From Fluviicola chungangensis (GTDB taxonomy: Bacteria; Bacteroidota; Bacteroidia; Flavobacteriales_D; Crocinitomicaceae), in assembly GCF_007558725.1 (NCBI RefSeq), contig NZ_VLPL01000005.1:248001-312000 (forward strand): a stretch of DNA of 64,000 nucleotides. The letters run 5' to 3'. Shown in pieces: positions 51,740 to 64,000 of the stretch. The notes beneath the pieces were generated by a model. The model was not told where the DNA came from. It worked only from the letters and a program-made list of their open reading frames with translations, and did not search any database. The position numbers were made by a program, and so were the translations under genes. Position 1 is the stretch's first letter. Every line of letters begins with the position of its first letter.

Positions 51740-52699
51740 TCAAGGGATCAATTCCTGCAATTCGAATTTCGGGGCGCCTTTTATTCCATTTGCATCGTAA
51801 TAATCCACGAAACGCATTTTATAATAACGGCCTGAAACAGTTTTCACGATAAAGGTTCGGTTGCTGTTTACGACATAAATCCCGTTATCAAAATCGTAGG
51901 TTTTCCAGTCGTAACCGATTACGTTGATGCGATCTTCAAAAGCGGATTCTGCAATATCGGAATGTTTCAGATCTGCAAACGGGATCGTTACTTCCTGTAC
52001 CTTCACTCCGTAGCGATTGGATAAAACCCCAACCACTGAATACGGAGTATGACTGTCAAACACATGACAATAAGCTGTGAAAATCAGGTCCCACGTTTCC
52101 TTATTGGGTTCGATATCCACCAAAGAACCACTTCCGGTCATGGAAAAATAGGTGAATCCGGCGATGGTCGATTTCGGAATGGTAAAAGTTTGAATGACTG
52201 AACTGTTCAAATCTGCAAATTGGATTTGATATTCAGCAGAAGTGACCGAAACAACTTTCAGTTTTTTCTTACCCAAACTTCCGCCGGTAAGTGCTGTTCC
52301 CAAATCAATTGCATACACTTTTCCCAAACTCTGCCAATCACCGATTGCTGTGGAATCCAGGTTTCCGGTATGAAAATCCCAGTGATAAGTCAAACCGGCA
52401 TCAGACGTTAAAGCTGTGATATCTGTTTCGTTGGAAAGTGCCGCTGCCATGATCCGTGATTCGTTCAGTAAAATGTGAAAACCATTCTCTCCTGCTTCAA
52501 AAGCCAGGTCCCAAACCTCCCGGTTATTTTGCCGGATAATGGAACTCGTTTCCAGGTCATAATAAATCTGGTTGGCATAATTCCCTCCCAATTCAACCTG
52601 GCTGGATGTAGCTCCGTAAACAGGTTTATCCACCGGGATTTCCTTTTTAAAACATCCGCTTAAAAGTGGGATCAATGCGATTAAAAGCGCTTTTTTCAT
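51740..52699 (-). CDS. HmuY-like haem-binding lipoprotein
   Basis: 319 residues. Lipoprotein signal MKKALLIALIPLLSGC with Cys16 followed by FKKE. The body has two copies of the HmuY-like motif pattern: QIYYDLETSSIIRQNNREVWDL and WDLIFTAYCHVFDSHTPYSVVG, plus VIGYDWKTYD near the C-terminus. HmuY of Porphyromonas gingivalis is a surface haemophore that hands haem to the TonB receptor HmuR; in that order here the receptor gene precedes it with a 4-nt overlap. Haem ligands cannot be assigned with certainty. It has a T9SS paralogue at the head of the same operon (58775-60019), which shares IGYDWKTY. Last gene of the operon. Confidence 0.85.
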   Translation of the reverse strand: MKKALLIALIPLLSGCFKKEIPVDKPVYGATSSQVELGGNYANQIYYDLETSSIIRQNNREVWDLAFEAGENGFHILLNESRIMAAALSNETDITALTSDAGLTYHWDFHTGNLDSTAIGDWQSLGKVYAIDLGTALTGGSLGKKKLKVVSVTSAEYQIQFADLNSSVIQTFTIPKSTIAGFTYFSMTGSGSLVDIEPNKETWDLIFTAYCHVFDSHTPYSVVGVLSNRYGVKVQEVTIPFADLKHSDIAESAFEDRINVIGYDWKTYDFDNGIYVVNSNRTFIVKTVSGRYYKMRFVDYYDANGIKGAPKFELQELIP

Positions 52700-54939
52700 T
52701 GTTTTGATTTGATCAGGTATGTCATATTCAAATAGAAACTTCTTCCCCAGGCGATCGGAGCGGTTCCTGCATTTGAACCGTGTGCGCCACCGGATGTACC
52801 GCTTCCTGAGTTAATATTGGTTACATCCAACAGGTTTTTGCCTCCCAAAGAAACACTCAGCGTTTTCTTCAGGAACCAGTGCTGCACCTGCAAATCCAAC
52901 AAGCTGTAATCGGAAATGAAAGATTGCGTGATGAAAGCGTCTTCATTGACAAAGTAAGCCACCACTTTACCGGTGTACTTGTAAAACGCGCTGAATTTGG
53001 TTGTTCCGTTCTTTAGTTGGTACGATACGGTTGAAACCAATTCCGGAGAATAAGCATACCGGTTGTTCGAATAATTGGAAGCTGTGCCGATGTAATTGAA
53101 CCCTGCACTCACGCTCCATTGCTTTTGCCCTATTTTCACAGATGACTGAATTCCGCGTGCATGGAACCGATCGATGTTGAAATAACTGTAGTTCACTCCA
53201 TCGGCAGATTGTGACAAACTGATGCGATTGTGAATGTCCTGGTAATACCCCGACAATTCAAATCCGGACTGGAATTTCTTTGGTTCCCAGTTGAAGTTAT
53301 ACCAGCCCTGAACGTGATTTGAGATTTCCGGTTTCAGATCCGGATTCCCATGAATATTGTGATTGATATCTACAAATTCCATGTATAACTCTTTAATAGA
53401 AGGCGAACGGAATCCGGAAGCGATACTTCCGCGTAAAAGGTGTTTCTTCTTCCCGATTTTTACATTCAAAGCCGGCACAAATGCTTCCTTGTATAAGGAA
53501 TTGTACGTAATACGCAATCCGGGTTTGAGGTTTAGCCAATTCCAGGGTGACCAATTAAAGGTTCCGAACAGGGCATAATCCCCTATTTCTTTTCGTTTAT
53601 TTTCAATGCGATTCCCAAAACCGGTTTCGTAATTGATATCATACCCGACTTCGTAATTGAATTTACGGTCAAAATTATTGCGTGTAAGCGTAACACGGTT
53701 AAAATATAAAACGAAGCGCGAAGTATCCTGTTCCGTATTCGCCAACAATTTCCGGTCAAGTGTAGTTAGATCCGATAAGTAAGAATTCTTGATACGTTTG
53801 TAATTGGAATAATTCAATTGAATGTCCAGTTTCAAGTCTTTTTTCAACCAGCTGATCACTTCCAACCCTGCATTCTGACGATGGGTAACATATTCGTCAT
53901 CAAAAGCAGAAATCTGATAAGGTGCTCTCGGGTAACCGCGGTTCACGATTTTCTCGCGGAACAAATCCAATGACGGGATGAGTTCCGCTTTTTTGAATTT
54001 GTATCCGTATTTTAATCCTCCCAAATACTGTTCTTTCATTTTCCATTGCTGGAAACGCCCGGAATCTGCCAGTTCTTTTTTCGGAAATTCGATCCATTTG
54101 TCTCCGGGAGTCCAGCCGTCAAAAAAGTTACGTGCACCATAGGCCGAAATCGAATGGTTTTTAATCCGCGAAGTCACTCCCAGGTTCAGGTTGTAGTTTC
54201 CAACCGTTTCGTAAAAAGCTCCCAGGTTTATGTCGTAGCCTTTATTCTTCGGCTTTTTTGTAATCAAATTAATGGTACCGGCCATGGCGTTGCTTCCGTA
54301 GTTGGTACTAAGCGGTCCCTCAACAATTTCCACTCGTTCAATATTTCCCAAATTGATCTGGCTCAGGTCAATGTTTCCGTTTTGACGGCCGATAACCGGA
54401 ACTCCGTCTATCAATATTTTTACACCTTCTCCGCCGATTCCAAGCAGGGACATCCCGCTTCCAAGAATTTGGTCTTGGCTGATGCGGATATTGAGTTCAT
54501 TTTGCAACAAGTCGCGTAAATTAACGGCTCCTTTTGCTTCAATAGTAGCACGATCAATCAGTTTTACTTTGTTTGTGGACCCTGACACTGATCCTGCGCC
54601 CAATTGACCGGTAATCACTACTTCACCGATATCCCTGGTGTTTGTTTTTAAGTACACGAGGTGCCTTCCTTTTGAAATGGTATCTATTTGCTGATGAAAA
54701 CCGTCTGTGCTGACTTTTATGATCAATTTCCCAGCAGAAAAAAGTCCATGCGGAACGAGTAACATTCCTTGTTCATTGGTTTGGACAAACTTTATTTTCT
54801 TCGCATCCACATCCTGGATCGCGACTTGTGCAAAAGACACAGCTGTTCCCGCCTCATCCTTAATATACAAGGTATCCTGAGCGGCAGCCACACCACTCAG
54901 GACGCTCATCAAAAGTAGTACATATGTTTTCCGGTTCAT
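52696..54939 (-). CDS. TonB-dependent haem receptor (HmuR-like)
   Basis: 747 residues. Signal peptide (YVLLLMSVLSGVAAA), a short carboxypeptidase-regulatory-like region, a plug (GIGGEGVKILIDGVPVIGRQ, near 165-185) and a barrel. Between residues ~510 and ~540 lies GFRSPSIKELYMEFVDINHN followed by HGNPDLKPE, matching the FRAP and NPNL boxes of haem receptors, with His residues between them where the invariant haem-ligating His occurs. This supports haem or haemoprotein transport rather than siderophore uptake. Overlaps the HmuY-like lipoprotein gene downstream by 4 nt; 3 nt after the HmuS-like stop. Confidence 0.9.
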   Translation of the reverse strand: MNRKTYVLLLMSVLSGVAAAQDTLYIKDEAGTAVSFAQVAIQDVDAKKIKFVQTNEQGMLLVPHGLFSAGKLIIKVSTDGFHQQIDTISKGRHLVYLKTNTRDIGEVVITGQLGAGSVSGSTNKVKLIDRATIEAKGAVNLRDLLQNELNIRISQDQILGSGMSLLGIGGEGVKILIDGVPVIGRQNGNIDLSQINLGNIERVEIVEGPLSTNYGSNAMAGTINLITKKPKNKGYDINLGAFYETVGNYNLNLGVTSRIKNHSISAYGARNFFDGWTPGDKWIEFPKKELADSGRFQQWKMKEQYLGGLKYGYKFKKAELIPSLDLFREKIVNRGYPRAPYQISAFDDEYVTHRQNAGLEVISWLKKDLKLDIQLNYSNYKRIKNSYLSDLTTLDRKLLANTEQDTSRFVLYFNRVTLTRNNFDRKFNYEVGYDINYETGFGNRIENKRKEIGDYALFGTFNWSPWNWLNLKPGLRITYNSLYKEAFVPALNVKIGKKKHLLRGSIASGFRSPSIKELYMEFVDINHNIHGNPDLKPEISNHVQGWYNFNWEPKKFQSGFELSGYYQDIHNRISLSQSADGVNYSYFNIDRFHARGIQSSVKIGQKQWSVSAGFNYIGTASNYSNNRYAYSPELVSTVSYQLKNGTTKFSAFYKYTGKVVAYFVNEDAFITQSFISDYSLLDLQVQHWFLKKTLSVSLGGKNLLDVTNINSGSGTSGGAHGSNAGTAPIAWGRSFYLNMTYLIKSKQ

Positions 54940-54942
54940 GAT

Positions 54943-55974
54943 TTACAAAGCTGCGATCAATTTTCTCCACGATTCCAATTCAGGAACTCCGGGCTTACGT
55001 GCCCCGAAAAGGGTACATACCAGTTCTTTCTTCGTATTGAACAACTCCAGTGAAGTCACCATTCCGTCTTCTGTTGGTTTGCGTACAATCCAGGATTCCG
55101 TAATCGCATCCTCTTTTGCATGCAGATTGAACATCGGATCCAGCACATTGATCCACGGACCGTGTTCCACGATGTTTTTCACTTCACCTGTATGAATTTG
55201 GATCATACCTGCATTTCCAACAAACACCATGATCGAAACCTGATCCTTAGCAGCCGCTTCCAACGCTCTTCGCAATGCTTTGTTATCGGTTTTTTTCGCA
55301 TAATTCTCATCCGGGGCCAAACGCAAAGCCTGTGTTCTTGTCAATTTGTGTTTTCTCAACAAACCGAAGAATTCATGCGTGTCTTTCAGATTAATCCATT
55401 GTTCACGGAATGCTTTCACGTCAATTTCACTATCCGGTAATTCAGGAGATTCCAATGGCAATAAAGCTCCAATCTCCAATTCAGATGACTGATTTTCGTC
55501 TTTGTATTTCGCAACCAAAGCTTCATATGCTTCCATGTTGCTTTTGGGTTCCATGTAAATCTTGTGTGTTGCAACACCATCGTTAGTGAAGAACTGCAAG
55601 CTGTGACGTGGTTTGTCCTCTCCTTCCGTTACTGCAAATGCATATGCCCAGGAATTTGGGAAAATGCGTAAATCGATATCTTTTCCAACAAAAAGGGATG
55701 CATGCGGAGTAGTACTGAAGTTCTCGTAAACTCCTTTACGCTCATGGACCACATCGTCATTTCTGGTTAAAGCCATTACGAAACCAAGTGATTCGATCTC
55801 ACCCAAGATTGCTGTAAATTCCGGGCGTAAACGAACCGCAGCAGTTCCAACACTCAATGCGACCAATTCCGCTTCTGAAGCATTCAATCGCTTCGCGTAT
55901 TCTCTGATTCTCAATTTAGGTTCGCTTTCCTTTAAATGTGTGAAAGCTTCTTTTAGTGACAACGTTGTTTCCAT
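54943..55974 (-). CDS. hmuS: Haem-degrading/transport factor HmuS (ChuS/HemS family)
   Basis: 343 residues, normal for the family, which consists of two structural repeats. Conserved blocks: RIREYAKRLNASEAELVAL near the N-terminus, LGEIESLGFVMALTRNDDVVHERKGVYENF, FVGKDIDLRIFPNSWAYAF, SLQFFTNDGVATHKIYM, and in the second half VFVGNAGMIQIHTGEVKNI. Cytoplasmic; binds incoming haem and in some bacteria breaks it down. Begins 2 nt after the hmuV stop. Confidence 0.93.
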   Translation of the reverse strand: METTLSLKEAFTHLKESEPKLRIREYAKRLNASEAELVALSVGTAAVRLRPEFTAILGEIESLGFVMALTRNDDVVHERKGVYENFSTTPHASLFVGKDIDLRIFPNSWAYAFAVTEGEDKPRHSLQFFTNDGVATHKIYMEPKSNMEAYEALVAKYKDENQSSELEIGALLPLESPELPDSEIDVKAFREQWINLKDTHEFFGLLRKHKLTRTQALRLAPDENYAKKTDNKALRRALEAAAKDQVSIMVFVGNAGMIQIHTGEVKNIVEHGPWINVLDPMFNLHAKEDAITESWIVRKPTEDGMVTSLELFNTKKELVCTLFGARKPGVPELESWRKLIAAL

Positions 55975-55976
55975 CT

Positions 55977-56795
55977 TTATTTTATTAGTGTATTATCAAG
56001 TAAATTCGACGTGTAAGACAGATGTCTGTAAAAAACCTCTCCGTCGAATGATTGGATTTGTTCTAATTCGATTTGGTATGTCTGGCTTAATAATTCCGGG
56101 ATCATAACTTCATGGACAGAACCATCCCGGATGACTTTTCCTTTTTGCATCAACAGAACGCGGTCTGCATATTGGTAACATAAATTAATATCATGCATCA
56201 CTACAATCACGCTCCCATGTTTATCATCCACAAATTTGCGTGCATGCTTCAGTAATTCGATTTGGTAGCGCACATCCAGGTTGTTCAAGGGTTCATCCAG
56301 GAACAAATATTTGATTGGCTGAATTTCCCCTTCACTTTCCAATTGGAGCAAAACCCTTCCAAACTGGACCCGCTGCTTTTCCCCTCCCGAAAGGAAATTG
56401 AATTCCACGTCTAAAAGTGCCAGGAGGTTTAATTCATTTGCAATTTTCTCAATAACCGTTTTGTTAAACTGGCTTTTGATTTCCGGATAGCGGTAACGGG
56501 CCATTTCCAAGACTTCACGAACCGTAAAACTGGAGGCGATCATGCTTTCCTGGTGCATATACGCACGGTATTTTGCCAAATCGCCGGGTGCCCATTCCTT
56601 CAGCTCTTTTCCATAATAGGAAATACTTCCCGAGCCTGGTTTTAGTCCGTTCGAAAGCAATTTGACCAGGGTACTCTTCCCTGCTCCGTTCGGACCGAGA
56701 ATGACGATAAATTCTTCCCGATCAGTCGTGAAATTAACCGGATGCAGGATTTGTTTCCCTTTTACTCCAAATGCTATGTTTTTTGCTTCGATCAA
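55977..56795 (-). CDS. hmuV: Haem ABC transporter ATP-binding protein
   Basis: 272 residues. Walker A GPNGAGKST (34-42), Q-loop MHQESM, signature FLSGGEKQRVQFGR, Walker B YLFLDEPLNNLD and the switch His in VVMHDINLCYQ are intact. Belongs to the FecE/BtuD-like ATPases of iron and haem importers. Overlaps the permease stop by 4 nt (56792-56795). Confidence 0.94.
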   Translation of the reverse strand: MIEAKNIAFGVKGKQILHPVNFTTDREEFIVILGPNGAGKSTLVKLLSNGLKPGSGSISYYGKELKEWAPGDLAKYRAYMHQESMIASSFTVREVLEMARYRYPEIKSQFNKTVIEKIANELNLLALLDVEFNFLSGGEKQRVQFGRVLLQLESEGEIQPIKYLFLDEPLNNLDVRYQIELLKHARKFVDDKHGSVIVVMHDINLCYQYADRVLLMQKGKVIRDGSVHEVMIPELLSQTYQIELEQIQSFDGEVFYRHLSYTSNLLDNTLIK

Positions 56796-57832
56796 ACCGA
56801 AAATTTGCGTTTGTGTTTAAAAATGATGGCGATGAAAACCGGTGTTCCCATCAAAGCGGTAATAATCCCGATAGGTACTTCTGTTGGCGGGAGAATTGTT
56901 CGGGAGATCATATCGGCAACAGCAAGTAAAATGGCACCGAAAAAAGCACTGAAAGGCAATAATAACTGATGATTCGGCCCCGATACAATGCGAATGATGT
57001 GTGGTACCACCAAGCCGATAAATCCGATTACACCAGCCATTGAAACTGCCGATCCCACCATACAGGTCGAACAAACGATCACCAGGAGTTTGATATTTTT
57101 CACTTTGTATCCCATGTAGTGCGCATTACTTTCTCCCAAAGCCAATACATTTAAGCTCTTAGCCCGGAAGAAAATAAGGATCATGGGAACAAGCGTGAAT
57201 ACAGCCAGTAACCCAAGTGAATCCGTGTTGGCCGACCCTAAACTTCCCAGGGTCCAGAAAGTCAGATCGCGCAGTTCATCATCCGTTGCAAAAAATGTCA
57301 ACAAACCTGTCAAAGCTGCTGTTAATGCATTCAATGCGATTCCTGCCAAAATGAGGGTCAATGAATTGATTTCACCCTGACTCAATGACAAGCGATAAAC
57401 AATAAATGCCACAAGGGAGGCCCCAAAGAATGCCACAATGGAAAGGGAAAATCCCTCGCTGAACAGAATCAACCAGGGAACCAATCCGTTGAACAAAATG
57501 AATAGTGAAGCAAACAATGAGGCGCCCGTTGAAATTCCTATTAAAGCGGAATCCACTAAAGGGTTTCTAAAAATTCCTTGTAATGCTGCACCTGAAACCG
57601 CCAATCCTGCCCCAATCAAACACGAATAAACTGCCCTTGGGAACCGGATATTGTAAACAACCTGGTATTCGATATCCGTTATTTCCAGACCGGTAGTGCA
57701 TCCGAGCTTCTCAATTAAACTGCCAAAGACATGAGAAACCGGGATACGAACATTCCCTACTGAGAGGTTCACAATAAAGCAAACGACCAGTAAAATAAGT
57801 AATGAAAAACCGATTATCCTTTGTCTTGACAT
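56792..57832 (-). CDS. hmuU: Haem ABC transporter permease (FecCD family)
   Basis: 346 residues from ATG 57832 (MSRQRIIGFSLL); a TTG at 57841 is an alternative. About ten hydrophobic segments in the BtuC/FecD pattern. Conserved ARFPRA-like NIRFPRAVYSCLIGAGLAVSG, LIGISTGASLFASLF, and the FIGLVVPHIIRIVSGPNH loop that contacts the ATPase. Inner-membrane channel. The 63-nt gap to hmuT holds a TTGAAC-type repeat tract. Confidence 0.94.
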   Translation of the reverse strand: MSRQRIIGFSLLILLVVCFIVNLSVGNVRIPVSHVFGSLIEKLGCTTGLEITDIEYQVVYNIRFPRAVYSCLIGAGLAVSGAALQGIFRNPLVDSALIGISTGASLFASLFILFNGLVPWLILFSEGFSLSIVAFFGASLVAFIVYRLSLSQGEINSLTLILAGIALNALTAALTGLLTFFATDDELRDLTFWTLGSLGSANTDSLGLLAVFTLVPMILIFFRAKSLNVLALGESNAHYMGYKVKNIKLLVIVCSTCMVGSAVSMAGVIGFIGLVVPHIIRIVSGPNHQLLLPFSAFFGAILLAVADMISRTILPPTEVPIGIITALMGTPVFIAIIFKHKRKFSV

Positions 57833-57841
57833 ACTTCTCAA

Positions 57842-57895
57842 TGTTCAATGAGTTGAAAAGGTTCAATGAGGTTCAAAACCAATTGAACACTTGAA
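57842..57895. repeat. GTTCAA/TTGAAC short repeat tract inside the haem operon
   Basis: The gap between hmuT and hmuU contains GTTCAATGAG twice, 18 nt apart, plus further GTTCAA and TTGAAC copies. The same motif style fills 27250-27340. Confidence 0.5.
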
Positions 57896-58756
57896 CTATT
57901 TAATCTTTTTGAATTCTTTATTTAACTCCATTAGTGCTTCAGCCACACGGGGACCGAACCCACTCAATAACTGTCCATCCATTTGGATCAGCGCTTTATT
58001 CTTACCTGCGTTTGTTGCCGCAACTCCGGGAACATGGAAGATTCCATCAGGCCCCAAACTTTGAGCTCCTGAGGTAAACATCAAAATCACATCCGGATTG
58101 GCGGCAATGACTGATTCACTTGTAAGCGGTTTGAAATCCGTGAATCCCTTACCGGCATTTTCCCCTCCTGCCAAAACGATCATTTTTTCAAGCGGTGTAT
58201 TTTCCCCGGCAACCATTAATGTTCCTGCTCCTCTTGCGTACACGAACAATACTTTAGGCTTTTTGTCCGGTTTTGAAATTTTCCGTACATCCGAATTGAT
58301 TTGAGTAACAATGGGTGCTGATTCATCTGCTTTTCCTAACCAGGCAGCCACTTCTTTTACCAGGTATTTTGCACCCTCTACGCTGTTCGGGTGTTTAAAA
58401 GTGATCAATTCGATCTTAGCCTGTTTTAATTTTGATTTCAAGTCCGGAGACACCTCATCCTCCAGCATCACTACATGGGAAGGATTTAATGCCAATAAAC
58501 TTTCAATGGCCAATTTGCGTACATGGCCTAAATTCGGGAGCTTTTCAGCGACCGCAGGATATGTACTCGTTACATCAATCCCAACGAGTTCCTTTTCTGA
58601 ACCTACCGCATAGATGATTTCTGTAACCGAACCGCTTAAAGAAATGATTCGTCTTTCTGCTGTTTTTCCCTCTCTTTTTTCTACCGGCTTTTCACCCGAA
58701 TTGCAAGCAGCTGTCAGTGCTAAAAGAGTCAGAAATAAAAAACTGATTTTTTTCAT
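57896..58756 (-). CDS. hmuT: Haem ABC transporter substrate-binding lipoprotein
   Basis: 286 residues. Lipoprotein signal with Cys18 (LALTAAC). Class III/TroA-type periplasmic binding protein: RIISLSGSVTEIIYAVG, LVGIDVTSTYPAVAEKLPNLGH (Tyr at the haem-ligand position of HmuT/ShuT), ALNPSHVVMLED, and FTDFKPLTSESVIAANPDVIL. Carries haem from the outer-membrane receptor to HmuUV. It starts 18 nt after the T9SS HmuY-like stop. Confidence 0.93.
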   Translation of the reverse strand: MKKISFLFLTLLALTAACNSGEKPVEKREGKTAERRIISLSGSVTEIIYAVGSEKELVGIDVTSTYPAVAEKLPNLGHVRKLAIESLLALNPSHVVMLEDEVSPDLKSKLKQAKIELITFKHPNSVEGAKYLVKEVAAWLGKADESAPIVTQINSDVRKISKPDKKPKVLFVYARGAGTLMVAGENTPLEKMIVLAGGENAGKGFTDFKPLTSESVIAANPDVILMFTSGAQSLGPDGIFHVPGVAATNAGKNKALIQMDGQLLSGFGPRVAEALMELNKEFKKIK

Positions 58757-58774
58757 TTTCTATTCAATCAAAGA

Positions 58775-60019
58775 TTAATGTTGTACAACCAAACGTTGCG
58801 TTGTTGTCGCTGTTCCGTTCGAAACTTCAAACAGGTAAACCCCGTTTGTGAAAGTTGCCGTAGAAAGGGTCATTACTTCCAACGTGCCGGATCCGGCAGC
58901 GTTTTCAAATACCACCTGACCGGTCATATTCATTACTTTGACCGTTGCATTTGATTTGGAATCAACCATTACTGTAACTATATCTGCAGCCGGGTTCGGG
59001 AAAATCCCCATAATCAACTGGTTCTTTTCAGCGACATTCAGCGTAGCTACTTTTTCTTTTTTGAACAGGGTTTTGCCTAAACTGCTTCCTGAGAAACCGG
59101 TCATGATCAATCTCCAGTAATCCCCATCTGCATCTTTCACGAAGTAAACCAGGGAATCTTCAATGGTATAAGTCCCTGCGTATGTTTTCCAATCGTACCC
59201 GATCGTGTTGATGTCTTCAGAATAGGTCACCGAAGTATATGTCATATCCGTAACAGGATCATCTACCGGGTGAACTTCAGCCACTTGCACTCCAACATTG
59301 TGTAATATCCCTGTTACCATGTTGTAAGGATAAGGAGCGCCGTTATTTGCAGCGTATTGGGTAAACACTAAATCCCAGCTCGTCGAAACGGGTTCTCTGT
59401 CAATTACGGTTCCGCCCAAAGTCAAATAAACAAAGTTTTTTGTCGCATAAGCTGTGATCCCGACAGTTGCAGTTCCTATCCCACTGTGGTCTGCATTCGA
59501 GTAGTCCACCGTGTATTCGGAAGACATAAATGACAGGGAAACAGTAAACAATTTGACAGAACCGTTTGAGTATTTAATGGCAAAAACGCGATTCGCAACA
59601 ATTCCTGTGTGGTTTACCGCATCGTAATTTCCCCAACCGTAATCCGTACCGCCGGCACTGGCAGTATTCAAAGCTCCTTCACTCCATGTTGCTTCCGAGT
59701 TGTAAAGCGGAGTCCATGAGGTCATACCCGTAGTATCAGCAGTAGCCAAATCTGTTCCGTCCGTACCCGGAACCGCATAGACAGATCCGATCTTGTTATT
59801 AAAAATAATCGATGCTGCCAGCGGATTGGAAGGGTTAATTGTTGTCGCAAAACCCAAATCCCAGTTATTTGCGGCCTGAGCGGTACCTTGCTCATCGTTT
59901 TGCAAGCTGTACCAAATGTTGTTTGCATATCCTGCGCCCATCGTTACTGAGTCGCTTACCAGCTGCGCATTTGAAAATCCAGCCAATGTTAAGAATGATA
60001 GAAGTAATCCTTTTTTCAT
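58775..60019 (-). CDS. HmuY-like protein with T9SS type-A sorting domain, first gene of the haem operon
   Basis: 414 residues. Sec signal MKKGLLLSFLTLAGFSNA without a lipobox. The N-terminal ~320 residues carry HmuY-like blocks: GAGYANNIWYSLQNDEQGTA, NWDLGFATTINPSNPLAASI, SWDLVFTQYAANNGAPYPYN and NTIGYDWKTYAG, most of which line up with the lipoprotein at 51740-52699. The C-terminal ~80 residues (IFPNPAADIVTVMVDSKSNA ... GVYLFEVSNGTATTTQRLVV) are a type-A T9SS sorting domain. Prediction: a T9SS-exported haem-binding protein, surface-bound or released as a haemophore. A -7 box with a -33 TTG sits upstream, so it leads the operon. Confidence 0.85.
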   Translation of the reverse strand: MKKGLLLSFLTLAGFSNAQLVSDSVTMGAGYANNIWYSLQNDEQGTAQAANNWDLGFATTINPSNPLAASIIFNNKIGSVYAVPGTDGTDLATADTTGMTSWTPLYNSEATWSEGALNTASAGGTDYGWGNYDAVNHTGIVANRVFAIKYSNGSVKLFTVSLSFMSSEYTVDYSNADHSGIGTATVGITAYATKNFVYLTLGGTVIDREPVSTSWDLVFTQYAANNGAPYPYNMVTGILHNVGVQVAEVHPVDDPVTDMTYTSVTYSEDINTIGYDWKTYAGTYTIEDSLVYFVKDADGDYWRLIMTGFSGSSLGKTLFKKEKVATLNVAEKNQLIMGIFPNPAADIVTVMVDSKSNATVKVMNMTGQVVFENAAGSGTLEVMTLSTATFTNGVYLFEVSNGTATTTQRLVVQH

Positions 60020-60092
60020 GTGATGTGTTTTTATTTATTGGGTATCCGTTCTAGCGGATTATTTTAATTTAAACTCAATCTAAATAACACGG

Positions 60093-60100
60093 CAAAATTA
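60093..60100 (-). promoter_or_regulatory. Promoter of the haem operon (TTG-N20-TAATTTTG)
   Basis: On the minus strand TAATTTTG is an exact -7 box and TTG (60121-60123) lies 20 nt upstream; 5' leader of about 68 nt to ATG 60019. No Fur box was identified by eye. Confidence 0.55.
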
Positions 60101-60165
60101 GGTTCGAAACGGAGTGGATGCAATCGCTAAAACAAGCGGAAAAAGATACCTTTGACAGGGTAGGT

Positions 60166-60789
60166 TTATTTCTTGAACACCTGGTTTTCCATTTCAAACA
60201 ATAAAAGCTCGGATAAGGATTTCACTTTTAATTTTTTGAAACAATTTTTGCGGTGTGTTTGAACGGTATGCGGACTTAATCCCAGTTCCCTGCTTATTTC
60301 TATTGTTGATTTACCATTTAACAGGGATTCTATGATTTCAATTTCGCGTTTGGTTAAGCTGAACGGGGCAGACAGGGTACTTTCATCATCGTGGCTCAGG
60401 ATCTTATTCCAAACCAATTCACAATAGTAGTTCTGGTTGTGTAACACTTTTCGAAAGGCTTCTTTTAATTCATCCCGGGTACAATTTACATCAATGAATC
60501 CGGAGACACCGAACGAAACCAATTTAGGAAGGTCGGATACATCTCTGTTTTGAATCAGTATCACCTTAACACAATTGGCATCTTCCGGAGTTTCTTTCAG
60601 ATTATTCTCAATTTCCTGGTAATTCCCTGCAAAGTTGTAAACGACTACCTGCTTCTGACCGGAAGATGTATGTTGCACTTTTGGATTTCCCGCATGCCAC
60701 TCAATTGTGACCTCTCCAAGAATTGATTGTACCAACTCTTTGAATCCCAGGCTTATCAATTGATTTCGACTATCTAAATGCAGGTTCAT
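60166..60789 (-). CDS. LuxR/NarL-type transcriptional regulator with receiver-like N-terminus
   Basis: 207 residues from ATG 60789; TTG 60816 would add nine residues. The C-terminal LuxR helix-turn-helix is clear (LTKREIEIIESLLNGKSTIE ... LGLSPHTVQTHRKNCFKKLK, about 145-200). The N-terminal 130 residues have receiver-like alternation (QVVVYNF, VKVILIQNRD, FGVSGFID), but where the phosphoacceptor Asp should end strand 3 the text reads VVVYNF with no Asp, so conventional phosphorylation is doubtful. It lies 147 nt upstream of the haem operon on the same strand. A regulatory link is possible but untested. Confidence 0.82.
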   Translation of the reverse strand: MNLHLDSRNQLISLGFKELVQSILGEVTIEWHAGNPKVQHTSSGQKQVVVYNFAGNYQEIENNLKETPEDANCVKVILIQNRDVSDLPKLVSFGVSGFIDVNCTRDELKEAFRKVLHNQNYYCELVWNKILSHDDESTLSAPFSLTKREIEIIESLLNGKSTIEISRELGLSPHTVQTHRKNCFKKLKVKSLSELLLFEMENQVFKK

Positions 60790-60929
60790 CTTATGTAGAA
60801 TAATTCTAAATAGCAAAATTGCCCTCTTGAGAAGGAATCTACAATACCGTAAAAAAGGTAAATCATCTACCCGATCCCTGTGAATCAGACAGTCGAAATT
60901 TGAAGTATGATGGTAAAAACGGGAATCGG

Positions 60930-63524
60930 TTAATGTTGTTCTACATGCCCTTTTTTACCCGAAGGAATTGCAAGTACCCAATCGTACCAGCCCACAAAGT
61001 GGGAATCAAAATACCCCTTGTGATTGTAGAGGTTTTTGGGAATATAAATTCGCTGTTTTTCCGACAATCCTTTCACAGAAGCCTGTGGCGCAACACCATC
61101 CTGCAGACAGGGTGCATCCTGGTTCACTGTATGCAAGTTACTGCCGTATTGCCAGACGTGCTTCCATTCTTTCCGGTTTACAGTTCCGGTTGATGCATTT
61201 TCAGGTGCCAGAATGTAATAAGCTCCAAAATTTATTTTGCCTCTCAATTGTTCGATCATTCCTTGAGCATAGGCGAATCCCATGCTGTGTACAACCAAAT
61301 AAAGGGTGTCATTTTTGGAAGAATTCGGTAATTCATTGAGCATTTGGAACAAATTTCGGCCCGCAATTCTTCCTCCGTTTACGCGAACCGCAAAACCTCG
61401 TTTATTGGGCTTAGTTGCCAGCAGACTGAGTGTCTTCGCCTTCCGGGAGCCGAAGAGTTTGGAACCCACCGTACTGGTCGTATAACAAGTATGCATTTTC
61501 GGATTCCGGCATCTTTTCGGGTAAATACCCGAGTTTGTACTGAAGTTCAGCAAGCTCCTGTGATTGGAGGTTGAAACGGAATGATGTCCGTCTGCATAAT
61601 AATACTCTGTCGGATTAATTCTCAACCGGAAAGTATCATCGATTTGTTTCCAGGGATGCCAATAATTGTAGCGGTCTTCCGTAAACAACCGATTGAGTGA
61701 ATTCGGGAATTCCAATCCATTGCTCCGGATATCTTCAAAATTCTCTTCAAACGTACTTCCCAGGGAAGTAGGACGATATCCGTTCACAAAAACCAATATC
61801 CGTTTGGGAGGATCCTCTAATTTTAATTTGGAAGTCAAATCCACCCCCAAATGATTATAGACCTGGTCCCGAAGCCATTTTCCTTTAGCCGAATAGATTT
61901 TGACCACGATATAATGGCTTTTTGCATCGATCGCTTCTTCCAGCAGATCGGTTTTCAGGGAATCCGAATTGGCGATCAGCCGCAACTTTACCGGAACCTG
62001 CTGTTTGGAAACATTCATTTTAAAATAAAGTACTTTCTTTCGTTCGTAAAGAAAATACTGCTTATTCCGTTTGACAATCAATTCAGATCCGACACGTTTT
62101 TCCTCCAGTTTATGGGGATGCCTGTTATCAAACAGCAGGTCCAGAACTTTCTTCTCATTCAATCCCGAATACGATTTGATCACTCCATCTGTTACTTCAA
62201 ACCAGGAATATCCCAAATCAACAGCTTTCATTAAAACAAATGAAAGTACGAGTATACCTGTCCATTGAATGAACCGTGAAAAGAAGGAAACCAGGCGTGG
62301 CTTTTTCATGCGCATTTTCAGCCATCCGCGTAATTTCCGGAACCCATAAACAAATCCTCCAACAGACAACAATACGCTTAGCAGATGCAGGATGTTAAAG
62401 GGTTTTGATTTGATGCGGAACAGGGTTTTGTACAAAATATTATCAATCTGAAGGTGATACGAATACGTATTTTTCTTCATCGGACGAATAACCGAAGCCA
62501 GGAAACTCTTATTTTTCAAAACAATGCTTCCGTCTTTATTTTGTTCAAAGAAATAATAGGCAATCAGTCCGTTGTTCGTAACCACTTCTTCATAATCATC
62601 GATAATGGAATAAATGCTCGGATTTTTATTGACCCGGATCCACATTTCGTTATCCAGGCCCCAAACTTCCGGATTTTCCTGTTCCGACTCTATATTGGCA
62701 AATCCTTCCAAGTACTCCATTGCCATAGTGTGCGCCAATTCCCTTGAATTGTTTTTCATCAAAAAGCCCAACGACTTGTTTTTCACAATGTATCCTTTCA
62801 AAGCAGGATTTACAAACCGGGGAATAACAAAAAAAAGAAGCGTATTGATTGTTTTATCTTTATAACTATTCTGATAGACATCCCGAACATGGCGCATCTG
62901 ATTGGTGTATTTCAAACGGTCCGGACCCGGATTTTCAAAAGATTCTCCCATTTCAAACGCATCGCTTTCGAACACGGGGTCTACCGTTACTTCGAAGCGG
63001 ACGTTTGCCGGAGCAAAGAGCACATTCAATTCCTTTTCAAGGCTGTCTGCGTTGATTTTGGCTTTCATTAAGGGAACAATCCGTACCTTTTGAATAACAA
63101 CCGGCAATACGGAAACATGTAGGGTTGAAATGACCCCTCCCTGGAACTTCGCAACCAGGTCGTAATCTTTATTCGAAGCCGGTAAAAAGATCCGTTGTTT
63201 GATCTCATTGACCCGTGTACTTGCAATACGTTCCGTGCGTATGTAAAACTCAATCGAATCAACAGATGGGAATTTAAGACGATTAATCTTAAAATCCACC
63301 ACATCCGTTTGTGCTTTTCCTACAGATTTGAATACTTCTGCTTCATATCCATTTTTATTGTTCTCCTTCACCCGTTCAAAAAAACCAAACCGTTGATTCT
63401 GATTCTTAACGAATTGTCCGGATTCAATCGGTAAATGGGGAAGCGTATCCTTTCGTTCCTGTGAAAAGCCATAAACGCCTGTTAAAAGGCATATACTGAA
63501 AAGAAAGAAATTCTTTCTAAGCAT
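60930..63524 (-). CDS. Multidomain membrane protein: degenerate zincin-like domain, two membrane helices, hydrolase-like domain
   Basis: 864 residues from ATG 63524 (MLRKNFFLFSICLLTGVYG signal peptide). The N-terminal ~250 residues end in a stretch that in plan resembles Bacteroidota metallopeptidase domains with a LAHELGHG motif, but here reads SRELAHTMAMEYLEG, so the second His and Glu are missing. Two hydrophobic helices follow at about 376-398 (LHLLSVLLSVGGFVYGF) and 420-440 (TGILVLSFVLMKAVDL). The C-terminal half begins ILVFVNGYRP and contains YADGHHSVSTSNH and YLVVHSMGFAYAQGM, the last resembling a lipase nucleophile elbow, with a late His in SHFVGWYDW. No named family is assigned. It follows the ACMSD-like gene by 8 nt. 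Confidence 0.65.
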   Translation of the reverse strand: MLRKNFFLFSICLLTGVYGFSQERKDTLPHLPIESGQFVKNQNQRFGFFERVKENNKNGYEAEVFKSVGKAQTDVVDFKINRLKFPSVDSIEFYIRTERIASTRVNEIKQRIFLPASNKDYDLVAKFQGGVISTLHVSVLPVVIQKVRIVPLMKAKINADSLEKELNVLFAPANVRFEVTVDPVFESDAFEMGESFENPGPDRLKYTNQMRHVRDVYQNSYKDKTINTLLFFVIPRFVNPALKGYIVKNKSLGFLMKNNSRELAHTMAMEYLEGFANIESEQENPEVWGLDNEMWIRVNKNPSIYSIIDDYEEVVTNNGLIAYYFFEQNKDGSIVLKNKSFLASVIRPMKKNTYSYHLQIDNILYKTLFRIKSKPFNILHLLSVLLSVGGFVYGFRKLRGWLKMRMKKPRLVSFFSRFIQWTGILVLSFVLMKAVDLGYSWFEVTDGVIKSYSGLNEKKVLDLLFDNRHPHKLEEKRVGSELIVKRNKQYFLYERKKVLYFKMNVSKQQVPVKLRLIANSDSLKTDLLEEAIDAKSHYIVVKIYSAKGKWLRDQVYNHLGVDLTSKLKLEDPPKRILVFVNGYRPTSLGSTFEENFEDIRSNGLEFPNSLNRLFTEDRYNYWHPWKQIDDTFRLRINPTEYYYADGHHSVSTSNHRSLLNFSTNSGIYPKRCRNPKMHTCYTTSTVGSKLFGSRKAKTLSLLATKPNKRGFAVRVNGGRIAGRNLFQMLNELPNSSKNDTLYLVVHSMGFAYAQGMIEQLRGKINFGAYYILAPENASTGTVNRKEWKHVWQYGSNLHTVNQDAPCLQDGVAPQASVKGLSEKQRIYIPKNLYNHKGYFDSHFVGWYDWVLAIPSGKKGHVEQH

Positions 63525-63532
63525 GTTTTCTC

Positions 63533-64000
63533 TTAAATTGAAGTCTTTCCAAGCCAACGCAACACATTGTCATACCAGATCGCATCCGATTCTTTTTGAT
63601 CCAAAATCCCGACTTCAACCGCAAAGTCAATCACCCTTCCGGGATAGGAGTTCGCTACACCTTCCATTTCACCTAATGGGTACGGATCATCCAACCCGGA
63701 AACAATCTGGGACGAGCCTACCCGGATTTTGAGTAATTGCAAGGTATAGGAATCGTGTACCAGGGTGTCAAAAAACAAGTTCGGATGACCTAAGCTTGCC
63801 CTCGGGTCCCTGGTTTCGGTAAACAGGTCCGGTCTTCCGTCAAATCCCTGTAATCTTCTTCCGTAATTTGCCTGTCCCAGCATACACCCATGAGCAAAAC
63901 ACGTGCGGATATCCGGGTATTTATTGACAAAGTCTTTGAGTGCATACATGTGCAAGGTATCTGCAGTTTGGGCCATCATCCAAACCAAGTGAAAACGCCA
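63533..64000 (-). CDS. ACMSD-like amidohydrolase (2-amino-3-carboxymuconate-6-semialdehyde decarboxylase family), 5' truncated by window edge
   Basis: Visible C-terminal ~155 residues; the frame is open to the window end. Blocks TCFAHGCMLGQANYGRRLQG, FDGRPDLF, FDTLVHDSYTLQLLKIRVG and SGLDDPYPLGEMEG match the decarboxylase: CFAHG, GRxxxGFxxRPDL, and the GTDYPFPLGE metal-ligand region (here GLDDPYPLGE, with the Asp retained). ACMSD acts in the kynurenine branch of tryptophan degradation. Upstream kynurenine genes would be outside the window. The next gene downstream starts 8 nt after this stop. Confidence 0.88.
   Translation of the reverse strand, partial: WRFHLVWMMAQTADTLHMYALKDFVNKYPDIRTCFAHGCMLGQANYGRRLQGFDGRPDLFTETRDPRASLGHPNLFFDTLVHDSYTLQLLKIRVGSSQIVSGLDDPYPLGEMEGVANSYPGRVIDFAVEVGILDQKESDAIWYDNVLRWLGKTSI

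Follow-up and report, generated by a model that had tools for sequence, protein, structure and literature searches.

HmuY proteins, which hold haem by two axial ligands (His-His or Met-Met), are known, in the literature covered here, chiefly from work on Bacteroidota of the mouth and gut. In the hmuYRSTUV locus of Porphyromonas gingivalis, a HmuY-fold lipoprotein is encoded next to a TonB receptor, and HmuSTUV consist of a CobN-like or reverse-ferrochelatase-like protein and membrane proteins (PMC9331221, PMC12106395). Here we describe an operon in a 64,000-nucleotide stretch of the Fluviicola chungangensis genome (the window; contig NZ_VLPL01000005.1, positions 248,001 to 312,000) that has a HmuY-like gene at each end. 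The product of one, which we call YT9, ends in a sorting domain of the type IX secretion system (T9SS), and that of the other, YL, carries a lipobox. We consider it rather probable that this operon serves haem uptake under Fur-type repression by iron and that its two candidate haem binders, both of HmuY fold, are exported along separate routes. P. gingivalis, in contrast, has a single HmuY and no T9SS-exported partner for it, and in place of HmuSTUV the window has HemS and an ATP-binding cassette (ABC) importer. An initial annotation of this DNA had taken one HmuY to be the rule for the classical locus, which is right for P. gingivalis but not more widely, as other Porphyromonas species have two or three HmuY homologues, and Bacteroides fragilis and Prevotella intermedia at least two (PMC12106395).

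Several other systems share features with this locus. The Flavobacterium columnare HmuY (C6N29_01035) resembles YT9 in joining PF14064 to a Por_Secre_tail domain and, according to its authors, leaves the cell through the T9SS; however, it is the sole entry under "Heme uptake" in the table of the part covered, with no lipoprotein partner there (PMC9618737). The hfpR-hfpY operon of Flavobacterium psychrophilum likewise pairs a TonB receptor with a HmuY-family protein, HfpY, which binds haem, and is iron repressed, yet in the part covered it has one HmuY-family protein only, a DoxX-family gene between the two and no HemS-HmuTUV (PMC9331221). In Porphyromonas endodontalis an extra T9SS type A gene, POREN0001_0445, lies upstream of hmuY in the hmu operon, but the paper describes its product as resembling a beta-barrel and perhaps acting as a transporter, and does not call it a HmuY homologue (PMC11208336). 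The nearest experimental precedent that we found for a pair of one released and one anchored haem binder is RhuH-RhuR-RhuA of Riemerella anatipestifer, where a released haemophore, a TonB receptor and a membrane haem binder sit at one Fur-box promoter region (PMC11967795). RhuH is vesicle borne, lies beside receptor RhuR and membrane protein RhuA and binds haem with a Kd of 3.44e-11 M; it differs from the present case in having 7.69% identity to HmuY and in that T9SS goes unmentioned in the part of the paper covered (PMC11967795). RhuH-family genes nevertheless sit inside the corresponding locus of relatives of the window genome, as described below. Secretion of a HmuY by the T9SS, genomes with more than one HmuY, hmu operons with an additional T9SS protein and iron-repressed HmuY operons are all in print already. 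We found no published conserved locus that pairs T9SS and lipoprotein HmuYs, or that joins HmuY and RhuH, in a body of literature that excludes most subscription papers. The operon varies a known haem uptake system in a way that is genuine and conserved, and its dual-route pairing recurs in many relatives.

All seven genes of the operon lie on the minus strand, running from position 60019 down to 51740 in the order YT9, HmuT, HmuU, HmuV, HemS, TonB receptor and YL, with -4 to +54 bases between them (Table 1). The proposal that two related HmuY-like proteins stand at its opposite ends held for genes and coordinates alike, and YT9 and YL are the only PF14064 matches in the whole genome. The genes between them had been called an HmuT-U-V-S set. 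They are indeed haem-type uptake genes, but not those of the P. gingivalis-type locus: instead of a CobN-like HmuS and membrane HmuTUV, we find PF01497 and PF01032 proteins, an ABC ATPase and a PF05171 protein. Together these make up a HemS-HmuTUV set of the ABC type, with HemS alongside a binding protein, a FecCD permease and a haem-type ATPase, and its predicted substrate is haem. For the receptor, the top NCBIfam model is TonB-haemin (94.6 bits; cut-off 316.85), level with the vitamin B12 receptor model at 94.2. One might propose that a siderophore or a tetrapyrrole other than haem is what the operon imports and that its HmuY-like proteins are distant relatives without haem function, since both permease and receptor score about equally on vitamin B12/siderophore and haem models. 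We regard this as very improbable, given the HemS/ChuX match of 253 bits, the haem-type ATPase as top match, the HmuY folds and the presence of RhuH-family haemophores in sister loci.

For structure prediction and residue counts we used alignments of YT9 (A5: 79 of 80 loci were within the length limit, and 74 were used with the window) and YL (A6: 57 of 59 frames plus the window); two others (A1 and A2) hold 38 of 45 YT9 and 44 of 50 YL frames, each plus the window. The AlphaFold2 model of YL (58 rows) has a mean predicted local distance difference test score (pLDDT) of 93.4 and a predicted template-modelling score (pTM) of 0.87. In a second-look structural aligner it matches HmuY (3h8t) with a Z-score of 15.3 (136 residues aligned; root-mean-square deviation, 2.6) and BfrB with 14.9, and beyond the HmuY family the best Z-scores are 8.7 and then 5.5. 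With Foldseek, the top ten rows for YL are all HmuY-family chains (E of 3e-4 or better, with modest TM-scores), and PF14064 is matched by 58/58 YL rows at E 1e-3, window included. The YT9 model (75 rows; mean pLDDT, 90.7; pTM, 0.75) finds HmuY-family proteins as all of its top structural matches, namely, PinO (Z 14.2), HmuY 3h8t (Z 13.5, residues 18-327, 133 aligned, deviation 2.9) and BfrB (Z 13.3). In plain Foldseek, long and poor matches to unrelated proteins lead for YT9, and HmuY-family chains come next with probabilities of 0.80-1.00 and E-values from 1.6e-3 to 2.9e-2. The lack of a HmuY-like fold in the 58775-60019 product, which the initial annotation had named as what would count against it, was rejected on the strength of the 3h8t match; the models predict that fold for YT9 and YL alike.

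YT9 and YL align at 28% identity over 299 columns (E 5e-25), and a profile comparison of their cores gives 100% probability over 265 columns. Chance likeness is rejected because of that 299-column alignment, and the shared blocks IGYDWKTY and WDL[IV]FT, earlier taken as signs of common origin, lie within it. A recent tandem duplication in this genome was also rejected, as a 60-row tree built on both proteins from the window and from 29 of 58 paired loci (a quick tree without bootstrap) divides YT9 and YL types by a single branch with a Shimodaira-Hasegawa-like approximate likelihood ratio (SH-aLRT) support of 100. By their sequences the two types separated anciently, and the statement that they differ only in export route does not stand: His137 of YT9 is present in 99% of 75 rows, whereas the best-kept histidine of YL reaches only 67% of 58. 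It may be that the two have different ligands: YL would bring haem to the receptor, and YT9 would bind a surface partner, a protein that carries haem or a different porphyrin, with no haem relay between them. The old separation and the unequal histidines are what such a division would lead one to expect, and HmuY paralogues do vary in ligand, HmuY-Bf-3 binding neither haem nor protoporphyrin (PMC12106395). However, YT9 and YL share operon, operator and fold and are conserved together with other haem genes, and we think separate ligands unlikely. Path lengths of YT9 and YL also correlate across loci (Mantel r 0.58; 0/2000 permutations as high), which indicates shared descent and alone does not demonstrate interaction. 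An internal duplication within the YT9 and YL cores is possible from the sequences: YT9 halves align with 86.9% probability over 119 columns and YL halves with 69.4% over only 23, and the Pfam picture is mixed. Separately, we note that these cores measure about 300 residues against about 180 in solved HmuY, and that WDL-type and VK..G..K-type motifs occur in them twice.

The proposed difference in export signals was borne out. The N-terminus of YT9 reads by eye as a Sec signal, with a predicted helix at residues 3-15, and its tail scores 48.3 bits on TIGR04183 (cut-off 23) and 49 bits on PF18962; residues 335-413 match the T9SS sorting domains (C-terminal domains) of mirolase (Z 11.2) and NucA (Z 10.2). 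The tail (Por_Secre_tail) is found in 75/75 YT9 rows and PF14064 in 53/75 at E 1e-3, window included. The genome encodes SprA (2393 bits) and a PorU sortase (1221 bits) and has at least 150 Por_Secre_tail matches, one of which is YT9, from scoring 150 of the 238 candidates. YT9 thus combines a Sec signal and a Por_Secre_tail with a T9SS-bearing genome and is a predicted T9SS type A cargo. YL has the lipobox LSGC, whose Cys16 is unchanged in 58/58 aligned rows (window included), followed by Lys at +3 in 47/58 rows and Glu or Asp at +5 in 58/58; the pattern C-x-[KR]-[DE]-[DE] fits 36/58. This pattern is close to C-x-K-(D/E)2, the signal for lipoprotein export to the surface that was worked out in Capnocytophaga (PMC5080379). 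As to where YT9 ends up, it may be a glycolipid-anchored surface protein that serves as a second docking protein of the receptor and not a released haemophore. The PorU sortase of the genome fits such an anchor; the F. columnare HmuY, on the other hand, is described as T9SS secreted (PMC9618737), and the sequence of YT9 does not reveal its fate. We hold anchoring to be somewhat unlikely.

Conservation of the set was followed in three samples. The named-genome set takes the best 80 of 322 matching stretches; these are the closest YT9 relatives, not representative of the phylum, and since some genomes are also in the family set (e.g., L084/L036, L085/L035 and L086/L038), the two sets overlap and their counts are not independent. 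The nearest relatives among named contigs, each 83% identical to YT9, are in a Fluviicola metagenome-assembled genome (MAG; L084) and a MAG labelled only Flavobacteriales (L085). After exclusion of 17 of the 80 loci, which had less than 6.3 kb downstream, receptor and YL follow YT9 on the same strand in 59 of the remaining 63, so that the search for the same pair in relatives' hmu loci, suggested at the outset, was answered positively. The exceptions are L094, L101, L130 and L119, the last from a MAG named Azovibrio and perhaps a foreign contig. In the family set, PF14064 is matched in 51/200 genomes, the window genome being one of them. The other 50 yielded 52 stretches: 43 with YT9, receptor and YL, 2 in which YT9 stands alone where the contig ends, and 7 with YL but without YT9. 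Six of the last group break off within or right at the receptor gene, and L055 shows 1.8 kb past the receptor with no YT9. In the phylum sample of 296 genomes, the YT9 profile matches 234, mostly by the sorting domain alone; these were left uncounted, and only near-full-length matches at E 1e-62 or better were taken. Such matches occur in 13/296 genomes, and in 7 of the 13 (own included) a YL-type match lies within about 6 kb. The YL profile, which also catches YT9, matches in 34 genomes, 21 of them without YT9. By these counts the lipoprotein is the wider partner and YT9 the addition. A search of a plasmid collection for YT9 gave zero matches. In three genomes (L174-L176) the YT9 gene points away from receptor-YL-HmuTUV. 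The space between the divergent receptor-YL and YT9 genes there holds a gene for a secreted-looking protein of 260-272 residues (L174:6225-7004, L175:6778-7581 and L176:4455-5270), with Fur-like sites near. Elsewhere, YL-type proteins of about 470 residues with an extra N-terminal part are found downstream of the receptor (L186:6023-7432 and L187:6508-7923), with no YT9 in the stretch.

The inner block of the locus is exchangeable. Among the 59 complete loci it is HemS-HmuTUV in 10 (9 arranged as in the window; in L124 on the other strand, beyond YL), a DUF6607 gene in 23, a CbiX-like chelatase in 13 (10 of them also with a PepSY-type membrane protein) and none of these in 13, Pfam names having been assigned from single examples. 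The DUF6607 protein of L106 (L106:11460-12374, PF20311) matches the RhuH structure 8xjc at E 3e-74. By sequence, DUF6607 is the RhuH haemophore family, though Pfam still lists it under a name for unknown function. The named loci hold 28 such genes; 15 are placed between YT9 and the receptor, another 9 precede YT9, and none shares a stretch with HmuTUV (0/28 in named loci, 0/26 in the family set). PF20311 is absent from the window genome and from two same-genus genomes, while the same search was positive in 3/3 Brumimicrobium-type genomes. YT9 and YL profiles gave no row against 8xjc at E 1, and 8xjc is absent among the structural rows listed for their models, which is no proof of a different fold.

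Upstream of YT9 is TTG-N20-TAATTTTG, which we take to be the Bacteroidota promoter form; its TTG and TANNTTTGC are retained in 9/9 aligned genus rows (7 distinct genomes). Scans for sigma-70-type promoters and simple terminators gave hits no more numerous than in shuffles. The palindrome between this promoter and the YT9 start is conserved within the genus, and as ATTTAGA-N5-TCTAAAT at less than about 100 bases from the start it is a putative site of the Flavobacteriales Fur regulon; a Fur homologue is encoded in the genome. It matches the R. anatipestifer Fur box, the 19-mer ATTTAGAATTATTCTAAAT, tested by electrophoretic mobility shift assay on hmuR and other promoters (PMC5609570; the abstract of that paper gives the classical consensus instead), and a near-identical box precedes rhuB in the same species (PMC10986502). 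Our search pattern came from the genus alignment and partly from the 60065-60087 site itself. It gave four strand-matches in the window, a number reached by 0/100 shuffles; as the pattern is drawn partly from that site, the independent tests are the genome scan and the upstream regions of relatives. Genome-wide there are ten palindrome places at two or fewer mismatches, two of which the window contains; the reversed control gave one. The neighbours of the other eight include, one each, a multihaem cytochrome, suf, nuo, a LuxR-type response regulator and an ABC1-type kinase by Pfam; for the remaining three (L169, L170 and L173) there was no Pfam result or no Pfam query was made. Upstream of YT9, at least 12/14 operator positions are present in 38/80 relatives, with about 0.9 expected from mononucleotide shuffles.

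Table 1. Features of the operon and its upstream region in the window
Feature	Position	Strand	Description
YT9	58775..60019	-	HmuY-like, 414 residues; N-terminus of Sec type; T9SS type A sorting domain at the C-terminus (residues 339-413)
HmuT-like periplasmic binding protein	57896..58756	-	PF01497, 101 bits; IsdE-type haem binding protein model, 75 bits (below cut-off)
HmuU-like FecCD permease	56792..57841	-	PF01032, 306.5 bits
HmuV-like ABC ATPase	55977..56795	-	Haem ABC transporter ATP-binding protein model ranks first in NCBIfam, 247.7 bits (cut-off 261)
HemS/ChuX-type haem utilisation protein	54943..55974	-	PF05171, 253 bits in two stretches
TonB-dependent receptor	52696..54939	-	PF07715 plug, 71.6 bits
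YL	51740..52699	-	HmuY-like with lipobox LSGC (Cys16), 319 residues; PF14064, 89.4 bits
Fur-box-like palindrome TTATTTAGATTGAGTTTAAATTA	60065..60087	-	Between promoter and YT9 start, 45 bases before YT9
Bacteroidota-type promoter, TTG + 20 bases + TAATTTTG	60093..60123	-	Upstream of YT9
LuxR-type regulator	60166..60816	-	PF00196, 67.6 bits; adjoins operon
Second Fur-box-like palindrome	60791-60813		Just before in-frame ATG of LuxR-type gene

The LuxR-like gene stands beside YT9 in 9/9 same-genus stretches, two of them at 27-28% identity only. In another part of the genome, a second LuxR-type response regulator (L167:1523-2200) starts directly at such a palindrome and precedes an unassigned, secreted-looking protein. 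Farther along in the window, a reading frame of 875 residues (60930-63557) has no Pfam match at E 0.01.

Several observations weigh against reading this locus as a haem uptake operon with two HmuY-fold binders. Target-normalised Foldseek TM (template-modelling) scores against HmuY-family chains are low (0.28-0.42 for YT9 and 0.35-0.57 for YL); the fold claim for both proteins rests on the second-look aligner. YT9 is barely over the PF14064 cut-off (27.8 bits against 27, less than 1 bit over), and its N-terminal half has no Pfam match at E 1. The ligands of HmuY, His134 and His166, were sought in YT9 and YL by profile alignment, but the mapping was not achieved; YL alignments to 3h8t span chain positions 10-60 and 145-186, by count outside both histidines. 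The receptor scores under all curated NCBIfam haem-receptor cut-offs, and its haem specificity is read from its locus. The export signal of YL in the window is imperfect (CFKKE, with no acidic residue at +4). Four same-genus genomes, among those listed, lack any PF14064 match, and 4 of the 13 YT9 genomes of the phylum sample lack a YL-type match, although G365 among them shows a short and weak match to HmuY elsewhere; in 2 more the YL-type match is on another contig. Finally, the F. columnare mutant in the T9SS HmuY showed wild-type growth and kept its virulence (PMC9618737), which speaks for redundancy or special conditions.

Gene order, model folds, the Sec-type start and T9SS tail of YT9, the lipobox of YL, the operator-like site and the conservation of the set all emerge from sequence and models. 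Together they support the initial annotation's interpretation in part; haem capture by one protein and hand-over to the other is the part that we put forward as a proposal. Low iron would relieve Fur repression of the operon. YT9 would then cross the outer membrane via the T9SS, have its tail cut by the PorU sortase, and be either released or attached to glycolipid on the surface, so placed that it could capture haem away from the receptor. YL, presumably a surface lipoprotein beside the TonB receptor, would take haem from YT9 or from solution and load the receptor. TonB-driven import would follow, after which HmuTUV would move haem through the inner membrane, and HemS may bind or degrade it.

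A broader and more tentative possibility, to which we would give somewhat less than an even chance, is that the locus exemplifies a Bacteroidota-wide haem capture module of two stages, in some lineages of three parts. It would comprise a foraging T9SS HmuY, an optional RhuH-type haemophore and a haem-receiving, receptor-capping lipoprotein HmuY, together with an interchangeable inner block (HemS-HmuTUV, a CbiX-like chelatase with a PepSY-type protein, or others). The duplication that gave rise to the two HmuYs would predate the divergence of today's families, with one copy retained as haem donor and the other as acceptor. For the recently described RhuH family, DUF6607 in Pfam, the locus supplies a genomic context of HmuY pair, receptor and Fur box. 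The conserved pairing of T9SS and lipoprotein HmuYs in environmental Bacteroidota may represent a natural donor-acceptor pair, which would make the passing of haem between HmuY-type haemophores directly testable.

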